From Opitutaceae bacterium (GTDB lineage: Bacteria > Verrucomicrobiota > Verrucomicrobiia > Opitutales > Opitutaceae): a stretch of 46,220 bases of DNA. The stretch covers positions 1-46,220 of the forward strand of contig SXSC01000193.1 in the NCBI GenBank assembly GCA_005792355.1. The letters are read 5' to 3'. Below, in pieces: positions 5,547 through 24,476 of the stretch. The position numbers and the translations under genes were made by a program. The notes under the pieces were generated by a model. That model was given only the letters and a program-made list of their open reading frames with translations. It was not told the origin of the DNA and did no database searches. How positions within the stretch are numbered: the first letter of the stretch is position 1; every line of letters starts with the position of its first letter.

Positions 5547-5573
5547 AGAGTGTCACGTAATACGTGACACTCT
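5547..5573. repeat. Palindrome A (perfect, 27 bp) upstream of the HTH gene
   Basis: A perfect odd palindrome: arm AGAGTGTCACGTA, central A at 5560, then the reverse complement of the arm. It forms a pair with palindrome B, whose centre is 54 bp away. The right arm overlaps a possible -35 element of the HTH gene. It has no T tract and lies upstream of the gene, which argues against a terminator. Confidence 0.93.
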
Positions 5574-5594
5574 GTTATTATCTTACTGTATAAG
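5564..5594 (+). promoter_or_regulatory. Possible promoter of the small HTH gene
   Basis: GTGACA (5564-5569, five of six matches to the -35 consensus) is followed after 19 bp by TATAAG (5589-5594). The -35 lies in palindrome A, and palindrome B (5603-5625) would cover the transcription start, the classic layout of operators for an autorepressor. This is a pattern match only; spacing is slightly long. Confidence 0.35.
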
Positions 5595-5602
5595 CGTCAA
5601 AA

Positions 5603-5625
5603 AGTGTCACTTAATACGTGACACT
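5603..5625. repeat. Palindrome B (23 bp, one mismatched pair)
   Basis: Arms AGTGTCAC and GTGACACT flank the centre TTAATAC, so one pair (T against C) is broken. The whole 23-mer is the exact reverse complement of palindrome G at 21884-21906, 16 kb away, so these are copies of one element. It lies 30 bp before the chosen start of the HTH gene. Confidence 0.9.
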
Positions 5626-5655
5626 GTACCGGGAACACCGCTACAGTGCGACCCC

Positions 5656-6015
5656 ATGACTCCTTCATATTCTGGGCGGATGAAACACCTGATACCGCTC
5701 GTGGAGCTGCTCATTTTCGCAGCTGCGGAGTCCGCCAAGGCGGCCCGGGCCACCTACAAGGAGCACAACCGCAAGCACGTCGGCGCGACGCTCCGCCCCG
5801 GGCCCGCAACCCCATTGTGGAACGAATTGGTGACGGCCGCGCGCGAACAACTGGCCGGTTATGGCGACAAGGCCCGGTTGGCACGGATCCTCGGCGTGCC
5901 GCGCCAGCGCGTGCACCAATATCTGCGCGACGCATCCGCCTGCCCCGACGCCGAACGCACGCTCCTCCTCCTCGCCTGGGTGCAGGCACGTCGCAACGGC
6001 CGCGATCTTCTCTGA
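5656..6015 (+). CDS. Small helix-turn-helix protein flanked by palindrome pairs
   Basis: A 119-residue protein (111 if the ATG at 5680 is used; neither start has a strong ribosome site). The N-terminal half has a hydrophobic stretch (HLIPLVELLIFAAAE) and a basic linker. Residues about 70-110 (KARLARILGVPRQRVHQYL followed by PDAERTLLLLAWV) read as a helix-turn-helix of the Cro/XRE kind, so DNA binding is likely. No exact family is recognised and there are no transposase motifs (no HUH, no DDE). Two palindromes lie upstream (5547-5573, 5603-5625) and two downstream (6041-6067, 6098-6120), each pair with the same 54-55 bp spacing. The simplest inference is that the protein binds these palindromes and controls its own gene. 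A role in spreading them, like REP-associated genes, is the alternative. Confidence 0.7.
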   Translation: MTPSYSGRMKHLIPLVELLIFAAAESAKAARATYKEHNRKHVGATLRPGPATPLWNELVTAAREQLAGYGDKARLARILGVPRQRVHQYLRDASACPDAERTLLLLAWVQARRNGRDLL

Positions 6016-6040
6016 CGCTTTTCCCGGCGCCCGCCAAACC

Positions 6041-6067
6041 AAAGTGTCACGTAATACGTGACACTTT
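6041..6067. repeat. Palindrome C (perfect, 27 bp) downstream of the HTH gene
   Basis: Arm AAAGTGTCACGTA, centre A at 6054, then its reverse complement, which ends in a short T run. It begins 25 bp after the stop of the HTH gene. The core is identical to palindrome A; only the outer two bases differ, and they differ on both sides so pairing is kept. It could also act as a hairpin terminator here. Confidence 0.93.
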
Positions 6068-6097
6068 TCCCAATCTTTCATTCGTGCGCTGCGGAAT

Positions 6098-6120
6098 AAT
6101 GTCACTTATTACGTGACACT
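6098..6120. repeat. Palindrome D (imperfect, 23 bp)
   Basis: Core GTCACTTATTACGTGAC with one broken pair in the centre and one in the outer arm. Its centre is 55 bp from that of palindrome C. As in the other two pairs, the imperfect copy is the right-hand one. Confidence 0.85.
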
Positions 6121-21228: not shown

Positions 21229-22743
21229 GTGCCCCGCGCCGCCAATCCACTCCGTGAGACGATCGTGCCGCTGACCCTCCTGGGCGGCGACGTGGCCGTG
21301 ACGTTCGCCGGCCTCTCGTTCGGCTACTGGTTGCGCTACACCTCGCCGCTCGCGCGCTTCGGCATCGATGTGCCCGGGGCCACGTTTGGCCGTTACCTGC
21401 CGCTGCTGCTGGTCGGGGTGGCATTGCTGATCGCGGCCTTCGCCCAATTCGGTCTGTACGACACCCGGCTGATCCTGCGCCGTTATCAGAGCCTCAACGC
21501 CATCCTCAAGGGCGCGGCGTTTTGGTTCGCGACTTATCTTGGCGTCTCGCTCGTCCTGAAATTCGACCCGCCGATCTCGCGGCTGTTCGTCGTCGAGGCG
21601 TTTTTCTGTGTCGTCGTGCTGCTTTACGCGTGGCGGACGCTGGTCTACGCCGTGATCACCCGCGCGGGCATCGTCGGCCGCCTGCGCCGCCGCGCGGTGT
21701 TGCTCGGTTGGAACGATCACGCCCGCGCCCTCGCCACCGAGATCAGCAGTGAAGCCGCGCATCCGTTCGACCTCATCGGGGTCGTCACGCTCGATCACGA
21801 CACCGCCTCGCCCCTCGTCGCCCAACCAGAGTGTCACGTATTACGTGACACTTTGCCTCAAACCCAGAGGGGCAACCTCAGCAAGTGTCACGTATTAAGT
21901 GACACTCTTGATGGGCTGCGTGTGCTTGGCGGGGCGGCGGAGCTCGAGGCGGTGCTGGCGCGCGAGGCGGCCGACGTGCTCATCATCTCGCGGCTCGATC
22001 TGCCGCGCGCCGATCTCCAGCGCATCGTCGAGATCTGCGAGCGCGCCTACATCGAGTGGAAAATCGTGCCCGGTGCCTTCGACATTTTTCTCAGCGGCCT
22101 GCACCTGCAGACCATCGGCCGCGTGCCGGTGCTCGGTGTCGAGGAGCTCGCGATCCGCCGCCTGTTCAACCGCACGCTCAAACGCGCCCTCGACGTCGTC
22201 GGCGCCCTCGCCGGGCTTATGCTGTCCGCGCCGGTCGTCGCCCTCCTCGCTGCGCTGATCAAACGCGAGTCGCCCGGCGGCCCCGTGTTATTCCGGCAGA
22301 CCCGCGTGGGCACCGATCACCAACCCTTCAGCGTGTGGAAACTGCGCAGCATGATACCCGACGCCGCGGCGACCGACACGGCACGCCAGAGCACGCCGCG
22401 CGGCGACGCCCGCCTCCTGCGCATCGGGGCCTTCATGCGGCGCTGGAACCTCGACGAGCTCCCGCAGTTCTGGAACGTGCTCCGTGGCGACATGAGCCTC
22501 GTCGGCCCCCGCCCCGAGCGGCCGTATCACGTCGACCGCCTCTCCACCGAAATTCCGCACTACCTGCCGCGACACCTGGCCAAACCCGGCATGACCGGCT
22601 GGGCGCAGGTCAACGGCCTGCGCGGCGAGAGCGACCTCGCGGCCCGCGTGCAGCACGACATCTACTACATCGAGAACTGGAGCGTCTGGCTTGATGTGCA
22701 GATCATCTTGCTCACCTTCGTGCGCTGGAAAAACGCCTACTGA
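21229..22743 (+). CDS. Polyprenyl-phosphate sugar-1-phosphate transferase (WbaP/EpsE type)
   Basis: 504 residues from a GTG at 21229. Four N-terminal membrane helices (to about 150) are followed by a nucleotide-binding-like middle region, then the catalytic bacterial sugar transferase domain from about 318: a membrane helix (KRALDVVGALAGLMLSAP), FRQTRVGTDHQPFSVWKLRSM, the NLDELPQFWNVLRGDMSLVGPRPERP block and the AKPGMTGWAQVNGLRG motif. The enzyme puts the first sugar phosphate on undecaprenyl phosphate and so starts repeat-unit assembly. Residues about 201-226 come from two palindromes (peptides CHVLRDT and CHVLSDT) lying in frame in the middle region, away from the catalytic domain, so activity may survive. 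It ends 8 bp from a convergent GT2 gene. Confidence 0.93.
   Translation: MPRAANPLRETIVPLTLLGGDVAVTFAGLSFGYWLRYTSPLARFGIDVPGATFGRYLPLLLVGVALLIAAFAQFGLYDTRLILRRYQSLNAILKGAAFWFATYLGVSLVLKFDPPISRLFVVEAFFCVVVLLYAWRTLVYAVITRAGIVGRLRRRAVLLGWNDHARALATEISSEAAHPFDLIGVVTLDHDTASPLVAQPECHVLRDTLPQTQRGNLSKCHVLSDTLDGLRVLGGAAELEAVLAREAADVLIISRLDLPRADLQRIVEICERAYIEWKIVPGAFDIFLSGLHLQTIGRVPVLGVEELAIRRLFNRTLKRALDVVGALAGLMLSAPVVALLAALIKRESPGGPVLFRQTRVGTDHQPFSVWKLRSMIPDAAATDTARQSTPRGDARLLRIGAFMRRWNLDELPQFWNVLRGDMSLVGPRPERPYHVDRLSTEIPHYLPRHLAKPGMTGWAQVNGLRGESDLAARVQHDIYYIENWSVWLDVQIILLTFVRWKNAY
21830..21852. repeat. Palindrome F (perfect, 23 bp) inside the sugar transferase gene
   Basis: Arm AGTGTCACGTA, centre T, then its reverse complement. 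Pairs with palindrome G (centres 54 bp apart). Read in frame as CHVLRDT. It has the same 11-nt arm as palindromes A and C. Confidence 0.92.
21884..21906. repeat. Palindrome G (23 bp, one mismatched pair)
   Basis: Arms AGTGTCAC and GTGACACT around the centre GTATTAA. It is the exact reverse complement of palindrome B. The spacer between F and G can itself fold (TTGCC at 21853-21857 against GGCAA further on). Read in frame as CHVLSDT. Confidence 0.9.
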
Positions 22744-24449: not shown

Positions 24450-24476
24450 AACATGTAACGTATTACGTTACATGTT
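24450..24476. repeat. Palindrome H (perfect, 27 bp), variant arms
   Basis: Arm AACATGTAACGTA, centre T, then its reverse complement. The inner ACGTA-T-TACGT matches palindrome F, while the outer arm is unrelated but still perfectly paired. It lies between two convergent genes and could serve as a two-way terminator, though no T tract follows. Confidence 0.88.

Follow-up and report, generated by a model that had tools for sequence, protein, structure and literature searches.

A short gene for a helix-turn-helix (HTH) protein with a pair of palindromes on either side raises the question of whether it encodes an autoregulator with dispersed operators or belongs to a mobile unit made of a gene and its palindromes, the two readings offered by the first-pass annotation of the locus. 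The gene lies in a stretch of 46,220 nucleotides from an Opitutaceae bacterium, which was analysed as a whole and is referred to below as the window. REP-type palindromes are common in bacteria, where Y1 transposases are held responsible for spreading them; in the present case a REP-like genomic pattern centres on a protein that is expected only to bind, and the role of binding, separate from that of cutting, becomes directly testable. On balance we consider it somewhat probable that the locus represents a two-part, REPIN-like system of the Opitutales, composed of a small HTH protein and a set of palindromic repeats.

The four palindromes around the HTH gene have the positions, lengths and centre-to-centre spacings (54 bp in the upstream pair and 55 bp in the downstream pair) given by the first-pass annotation, and the gene is the 119-residue one that it described, with an ATG at 5656 and a stop codon at 6013-6015 (Table 1). 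The upstream pair had also been placed over a possible promoter, and there is indeed a promoter-like match at 5618-5647 (9/12; 1 found against 0.2 +/- 0.5 in shuffles) that overlaps P2, its first hexamer, the candidate -35 element, falling in the right arm of that palindrome. A search with GTGTCACKTANTACGTGACAC, allowing at most 3 mismatches, returns 12 strand-matches in the window against 0 in 100 shuffles. Overlooked in the first pass were a second doublet of the same family (F1), its centres again separated by 54 bp, as well as two single palindromes belonging to sister families.

Table 1. Positions of the HTH gene and of the palindromes recognised in the window
Feature	Position	Strand	Basis
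Palindrome P1 (family F1), perfect 27-mer AGAGTGTCACGTAATACGTGACACTCT, centre 5560	5547..5573		sequence
AT-rich spacer within the upstream doublet	5574..5602		sequence; F1 spacer GC versus flanks
Palindrome P2, 23-mer, one mismatched pair, centre 5614	5603..5625		sequence
Gene for 119-aa Cro/XRE-like HTH protein, stop included	5656..6015	+	sequence, structure model
Palindrome P3, perfect 27-mer, centre 6054	6041..6067		sequence
Palindrome P4, 23-mer, two mismatched pairs, centre 6109	6098..6120		sequence
Single palindrome, family F5, TTGTCACCTATTAGGTGACAA	20454..20474		pattern match
F1 palindrome, left half of gene-free dispersed doublet, centre 21841	21830..21852		pattern match
F1 palindrome, right half of gene-free doublet, centre 21895	21884..21906		pattern match
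Single palindrome ATGTAACGTATTACGTTACAT, type flanking the C109 paralog	24453..24473		pattern match

AlphaFold2, run on 71 family members, yields an all-helical model (pLDDT 84.8, pTM 0.57) with helices at residues 7-10, 13-33, 53-65, 71-79, 83-92 and 99-113, of which residues 83-92 constitute the predicted recognition helix. Among the best 50 of 296 Foldseek matches, lambda-type repressors and antitoxins stand at the top (HigA2, P22 c2, C-proteins), with weak E-values throughout (none at or below 0.001), and no transposase occurs among these 50. Every Pfam family matched by the 71 members at E<=0.01 is of the HTH type, namely YdaS in 31, HTH_3 in 10 and four others in 1 or 2 each. The likeness to YdaS (PF15943) is a weak similarity of the HTH, whereas the window protein itself stays under the curated cut-off of that family (19.3 bits against 30, over residues 70-97 only). 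Neither the structure model, nor the best 50 of 296 Foldseek matches, nor Pfam disclosed an HUH/Y1 tyrosine transposase or a recognisable nuclease domain, and no defence family or curated NCBI family matched the protein convincingly. In its fold, in the position of its recognition helix and in the palindromes near its start, the gene is comparable to the Cro/XRE (lambda-type) repressors and the HigA/HipB-type antitoxins; unlike these, it has sites on both sides and dispersed repeat families, the palindrome-bounded unit of the window contains no second gene, and the window protein bears an N-terminal extension of about 50 residues. A phage or plasmid origin was rejected, as searches of viral contigs, of phages and of plasmids yielded no relative; the strict core palindrome is present in 2 viral contigs.

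In the genome from which the window comes (G000; 8.4 Mb in 416 contigs) the strict palindrome pattern has 23 forward and 21 reverse matches, and the relaxed pattern TNACNTAWTANGTNA has 145 sites, the control giving 0 in both cases. All 145 sites were read and grouped by arm sequence, which assigned 144 of them to five families, F1 (GTGTCACGTA, 29 sites), F2 (ATGTAACGTA, 44 sites), F3 (TTGTCACGTA, 45 sites), F4 (TTTTCACGTA, 19 sites) and F5 (TCACCTA or TAACCTA, 7 sites), and left 1 other. This number is a lower bound because a further type, TTGTCATCCA, associated with the C230 paralog, cannot match the relaxed pattern. Pairs about 54 bp apart recur elsewhere in the genome, contrary to the absence of further pairs that the first-pass annotation had named as a refutation: F1 is laid out as 13 doublets and 3 single loci, with neighbour spacings (n=13) of 53, 54 (nine times), 55, 55 and 57 bp. 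Its description of this interval as about five helical turns holds for F1 and fails as a general rule, since the other families prefer about 43-44, 57, 76-79 or 88-91 bp (42-46 bp in 11 of 18 F3 spacings, three of these from one tandem array; 57-58 or 76-79 bp in 6 of 7 for F4; 56-57 or 88-91 bp in 5 of 6 for F2, which is mostly single, at 33 of 38 loci).

The spacers of the F1 doublets are barely alike (mean identity 0.40 versus 0.34 when shuffled), so that recent copying of whole F1 doublets is unsupported, a point against the REPIN-like account. They are, all the same, AT-rich in 13 of 13 doublets (50.6% GC versus 68.7% in the outer flanks, p=0.0002), as are the F3 spacers when averaged over 11 doublets (53.0% versus 63.3%, p=0.024), and compared with their flanks they look element-derived rather than like host target DNA. 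When genes were called around the sites with a home-made hexamer gene caller, 76 of the 98 placed loci (of 99) proved intergenic, 3 lay at gene edges and only 19 fell inside predicted genes, even though 84.5% of the fetched stretches is coding. The genes next to the palindromes are in tandem in 46 cases, divergent in 15 and convergent in 15, against a background of 102, 24 and 30; this is no departure, and a terminator or operator role judged by gene orientation was dropped. At the copies of this genome we found no target-site duplications, a further point against the REPIN-like account; their flanks have no apparent terminal repeats, and no constant GTAG or CGTC tag was seen on reading the aligned sites. 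Covariation between the outer arms of the 145 dispersed sites is near the column expectation, with a modest excess at a few positions (F2 7-9, F3 4-5), and arms of gene-flanking sites are only slightly longer than those of dispersed ones (13.2 versus 12.2, p=0.049); a hairpin or RNA structure is accordingly given no weight. At two loci (L202 on contig C193 and L216 on C342) units that contain a palindrome are repeated in tandem, with periods of 44 bp and 69 bp. The F5 palindromes (TTGTCACCTAWTAGGTGACAA) have no matching paralog among those found in this genome, and their gene may have been lost or may be missing from the assembly.

Besides the window gene, G000 encodes four further paralogs with 46-56% identity to its product (alignment A1), a sixth match at E=0.097 being treated as noise. 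The palindromes of the five differ: paralog C109 has ATGTAACGTA and C230 has TTGTCATCCA on both sides, C347 has TTGTCAC(G/T)TA upstream, and C160, a partial copy at a contig edge, has TTTTCACGTA downstream. A profile search detected 132 relatives in species genomes, and the titles of the best 80 of these 132, which were kept, are all from Verrucomicrobiota and mostly from Opitutae. Around the 80, palindromes sought de novo (arms of at least 9 with no more than 1 mismatch) number 135 in 94 kb, or 1.43 per kb, up to 600 bp from the gene, against 21 in 240 kb, or 0.088 per kb, beyond 1200 bp, a 16-fold difference in density. By reading, a family-type palindrome accompanies 59 of the 80 genes, whereas 3 are next to unrelated palindromes only and 18 lack any. 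Under a looser rule a half-site could be assigned in 79 of 101 homolog sequences (some of them duplicated via two collections), lying upstream in 69, downstream in 69 and on both sides in 59; with start codons assigned in this analysis, the upstream site stands at a median of 28 bp before the start. The 22 of 101 sequences with no recognised palindrome count against the REPIN-like account, as do syntenic homologs of this kind (e.g. L070, L081 and L086). The homologs at shared loci that have no recognisable palindromes are L070, L081 and L086 together with L089, L099 and L101, and these are perhaps domesticated copies.

The relationship between protein and palindrome extends to matched sequence changes. 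In a set of 67 sequences made non-redundant at the 90% level, the distance between half-sites correlates with that over residues 81-96 when the rest of the protein is controlled for (partial Mantel r=0.318, 0/5000 permutations), and with the rest of the protein, given residues 81-96, at 0.144 (42/5000 permutations). The strongest association links position 3 of the half-site to residue 83, with which the predicted recognition helix begins: G accompanies R in 60 cases and K in 2, and T accompanies P in 4 and A in 1 (67/67), although this switch may be one event because the tree unites all five P/A sequences in a single clade. Position 1 is associated with residue 69 (Fisher p=5e-12), where Y or F goes with 26 purines and 0 T, R or H with 7 purines and 33 T, and one sequence has L. 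Of 17 independent contrasts for this pair 12 agree, 0 oppose and 5 are without change, the seven R/H69 proteins with a purine being counter-examples. Residues outside the HTH (e.g. A107 and S26) also rank high in the association list, which implies that shared ancestry contributes to the signal. Within a group of loci that have common flanks the palindromes are lineage-specific (TTGTCACCTA in L075, GTGTAACCCA in L096, TTGTAACCTA in L097, AAGTAACCCA in L108 and GAGTAACCTA in L128), and L075, L096 and L097, which have palindromes on both sides of the gene, each show the same type on either side. This family-specific co-variation, like the repeats and the linkage of gene and palindromes, was computed directly; we regard the co-variation between HTH residues and site as strong indirect evidence that the protein would bind the palindromes.

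Across genomes, too, gene and palindromes go together, and the lack of co-occurrence that the first-pass annotation had named as a refutation is not observed (Mann-Whitney p=1.3e-8 over 57 genomes and p=7e-7 within the family, a statistic that ignores genome kinship). The gene is present in 13 of the 57 genomes, that of the window included, with at most 79 candidates scored per genome, and these 13 have 145, 10, 29, 1, 87, 51, 35, 5, 3, 43, 43, 7 and 14 palindrome sites. At least 3 sites are found in 12 of the 13 gene-bearing genomes versus 3 of the 44 gene-lacking ones, namely G030 (8), G026 (4) and G044 (4, with 5 in its control). G030, where 8 sites occur and no gene was detected, speaks against the REPIN-like account; in the low-count bearer G010 the gene (L066, identical to L118) belongs to the TCATCTA type, and that type lies beyond the reach of the pattern. 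The closed genome G029 (5,957,605 bp) has 43 relaxed-pattern sites and 36 exact TTTCACGTAATACGTGAAA sites, the latter reduced to 20 loci after manual grouping (L238-L267). The exact sites of this one closed genome are absent from 2.54-4.66 Mb, a 2.13-Mb gap (p=0.0045 under uniform placement). GC skew, followed over 20 sampled stretches, changes sign at 0.9-1.2 Mb and at 4.2-4.5 Mb, and since the gap spans the latter change it covers the likely terminus.

Comparison of loci bears on the edges of the unit. Among 935 pairs of homolog loci whose alignment overlaps the gene, 68 have flanks in common, in 211 the flank is too short, and 656 align in the gene only, most of these last stopping inside the gene and being uninformative on unit edges. 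In pairs where both members have a site, the alignment reaches it in 5 cases upstream and 19 downstream (some share members), and in none of them does it extend over 25 bp past the centre of the outermost palindrome. The longest alignment, between the window and L031 (73% over 586 columns), stops on either side where the outer palindrome does. Homologous units occur at unrelated loci, and differences are also seen between the close genomes G057, G058 and G059, of which G057 and G058 are 94-98% alike at shared sites. Here 11 of 16 fetched TTG-type loci of G057 have a match in G058, which indicates that movement is slow or old, and 11 of 14 fetched from G058 have one in G057. Two of the unmatched loci were followed. 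At one of them a single palindrome, of GTG type in G058 and TTG type in G059 and thus differing symmetrically, corresponds in G057 to an array built of 105-bp units; a stretch of this array including the spacer resembles another palindrome locus of G059 (86% over 65 bp). At the other, a 45-bp palindrome-containing stretch is found in G058 only. Palindromes around positions 1500 and 3000 of L298 and L319 apparently lie in frame within an ORF conserved in the three genomes, a placement judged by eye, and the G058-specific 45-bp stretch is located there. L043 and L044 differ by a 61-bp indel bordered by a direct repeat of 5 bp, which was set aside as an insertion candidate since it may also be a deletion.

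Some copies have a recognisable carrier. A 113-bp element with terminal inverted repeats AGTATTACTCGGTTA, CTAG-like 4-bp duplications and a palindrome near its centre is present in G058 and G057 where G059 has an empty site, and copies are dispersed in G060 and G061 too (L338:2812-2922, L339, L340, L346-L348, L350-L354, and copies in L371-L389); by reading, 10 of 15 fetched GTG-type sites of G058 are inside it. In 20 aligned copies, which are the best-scoring fetched ones and no random draw, the palindrome is 96.9% conserved versus 80.6% for the interior (p=1.7e-6), the terminal repeats standing at 82-84%. No autonomous partner was seen in the fetched loci, which give one end match per locus. 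In that sister clade, then, a conventional miniature transposon carries the palindromes, which show better preservation than the carrier sequence, which suggests that movers are borrowed. The sole clean empty site belongs to this terminal-repeat element, and an unrelated transposase may be the driver. The 113-bp element of G057, G058, G060 and G061 resembles a MITE in its terminal repeats and CTAG-like duplications, whereas the copies in the window's genome have neither target duplications nor apparent terminal repeats.

Several other explanations have to be weighed. The dispersed palindromes could be operators of a plain autoregulated global regulator, kept by selection with nothing selfish or mobile about them, and such a regulator would accord with the Cro/XRE fold, sites so close to the start codon, an HTH that co-varies with the site, a near-fixed 54-bp spacing around unrelated spacers and a palindrome whose conservation exceeds that of its carrier. 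We nevertheless consider this rather unlikely: the orientation of neighbouring genes at the sites equals the background, copies are also located on the downstream side of the gene and in the gaps that separate convergent genes, the distribution is patchy, one genome has five paralogs with unlike palindromes, and arrays as well as differences among close genomes are observed. If the HTH protein instead read position along the chromosome, as part of a chromosome-organising or nucleoid-occlusion-like system for which SlmA, Noc and MatP sites are the models, the site-free gap over the likely terminus of G029 would find an explanation. However, the gap is off-centre and concerns the exact sites of G029 alone, a core organiser should not be absent from most relatives, as this gene is, and several palindrome families coexist per genome, all of which makes this idea improbable.

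The palindromes might also be ordinary REP/REPIN sequences moved by a true RAYT encoded elsewhere, with the HTH gene as a bystander. REP/REPIN populations are described as extragenic palindromes with doublets and poorly conserved spacers (PMC3116915), much as here, and O. terrae is reported to be rich in GTAG REPs (PMC3733652). Yet the present palindromes flank the HTH gene and co-vary with it, and by reading they have no constant GTAG or CGTC tag, so that, judged by the tag, the O. terrae REPs are a different family; we regard a bystander role as highly improbable. Of slightest probability is that transcription terminators or RNA hairpins flank the gene by chance. P1 is terminator-like (1 found against 0.7 +/- 1.0 in shuffles), and some gene-flanking arms are long, the palindrome that precedes the gene in G029 having 21 perfect pairs, but convergent positions are not in excess, the outer arms of dispersed copies covary about as expected, and such structures would not co-vary with the HTH of the neighbouring protein.

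Returning to the REPIN-like system, the simplest account would be that of a Cro-like protein which regulates its own gene and whose binding sites became a REPIN-like repeat population, and the evidence supports the two readings of the first-pass annotation, autoregulator and gene-plus-palindrome mobile unit, together rather than one of them. One part would be the small Cro/XRE-type HTH protein, the other a 21-23-bp palindrome that it would bind directly, probably as one dimer per palindrome. Palindromes near the start codon, with P2 overlapping the candidate -35 element, would render the gene autoregulated. The palindromes appear to have multiplied genome-wide, F1 mostly in the form of palindrome, AT-rich spacer and palindrome, and, as each paralog has a palindrome of its own, several gene/site families are found side by side in one genome. 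From the presence of the unit of palindromes, gene and palindromes at unrelated loci in different genomes we infer that it is mobile. A stronger version, which we offer tentatively as a possibility, is a selfish gene-repeat system in which a small, non-catalytic Cro-like protein takes the place of a transposase in defining the palindrome family, protein and site diverge as pairs through matched changes at a few recognition residues, several such pairs coexist in a genome, and the palindromes spread as host or foreign enzymes are recruited to the bound sites. A selfish repeat is tentatively favoured over a transposon-spread regulon because the placement is intergenic and orientation-blind, the presence is patchy and the families are parallel.

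The present system works in the manner of REPIN-RAYT systems (PMC3116915), with short extragenic multi-copy palindromes, doublets of preferred spacing, spacers of low conservation, palindromes on both sides of a linked gene and several gene/repeat families per genome, but its linked gene does not recognisably encode a Y1 transposase, their defining feature. Its gene product is instead a Cro/XRE-like HTH protein with no recognisable HUH/Y1 nuclease, there is no constant GTAG or CGTC tag, and the palindromes are near-perfectly symmetric and resemble double-stranded operators. No published account of these palindromes or of this gene family was found among the literature matches listed, which comprise titles and abstract openings with subscription literature mostly outside. 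The matched changes suggest a specificity code, with R83 for G3, P83 for T3, Y69 for a purine at position 1 and R69 mostly for T1, and in the coexisting pairs nature may offer a ready set of repressor/operator parts that work independently of one another. A separate feature was noted upstream of the gene in G029, where the palindrome at L115 1447-1489 is perfect over 43 nt (21 perfect pairs) and has GGAGG at its right end, directly before the ATG; judging from these letters, a hairpin formed by it could mask the ribosome-binding site.
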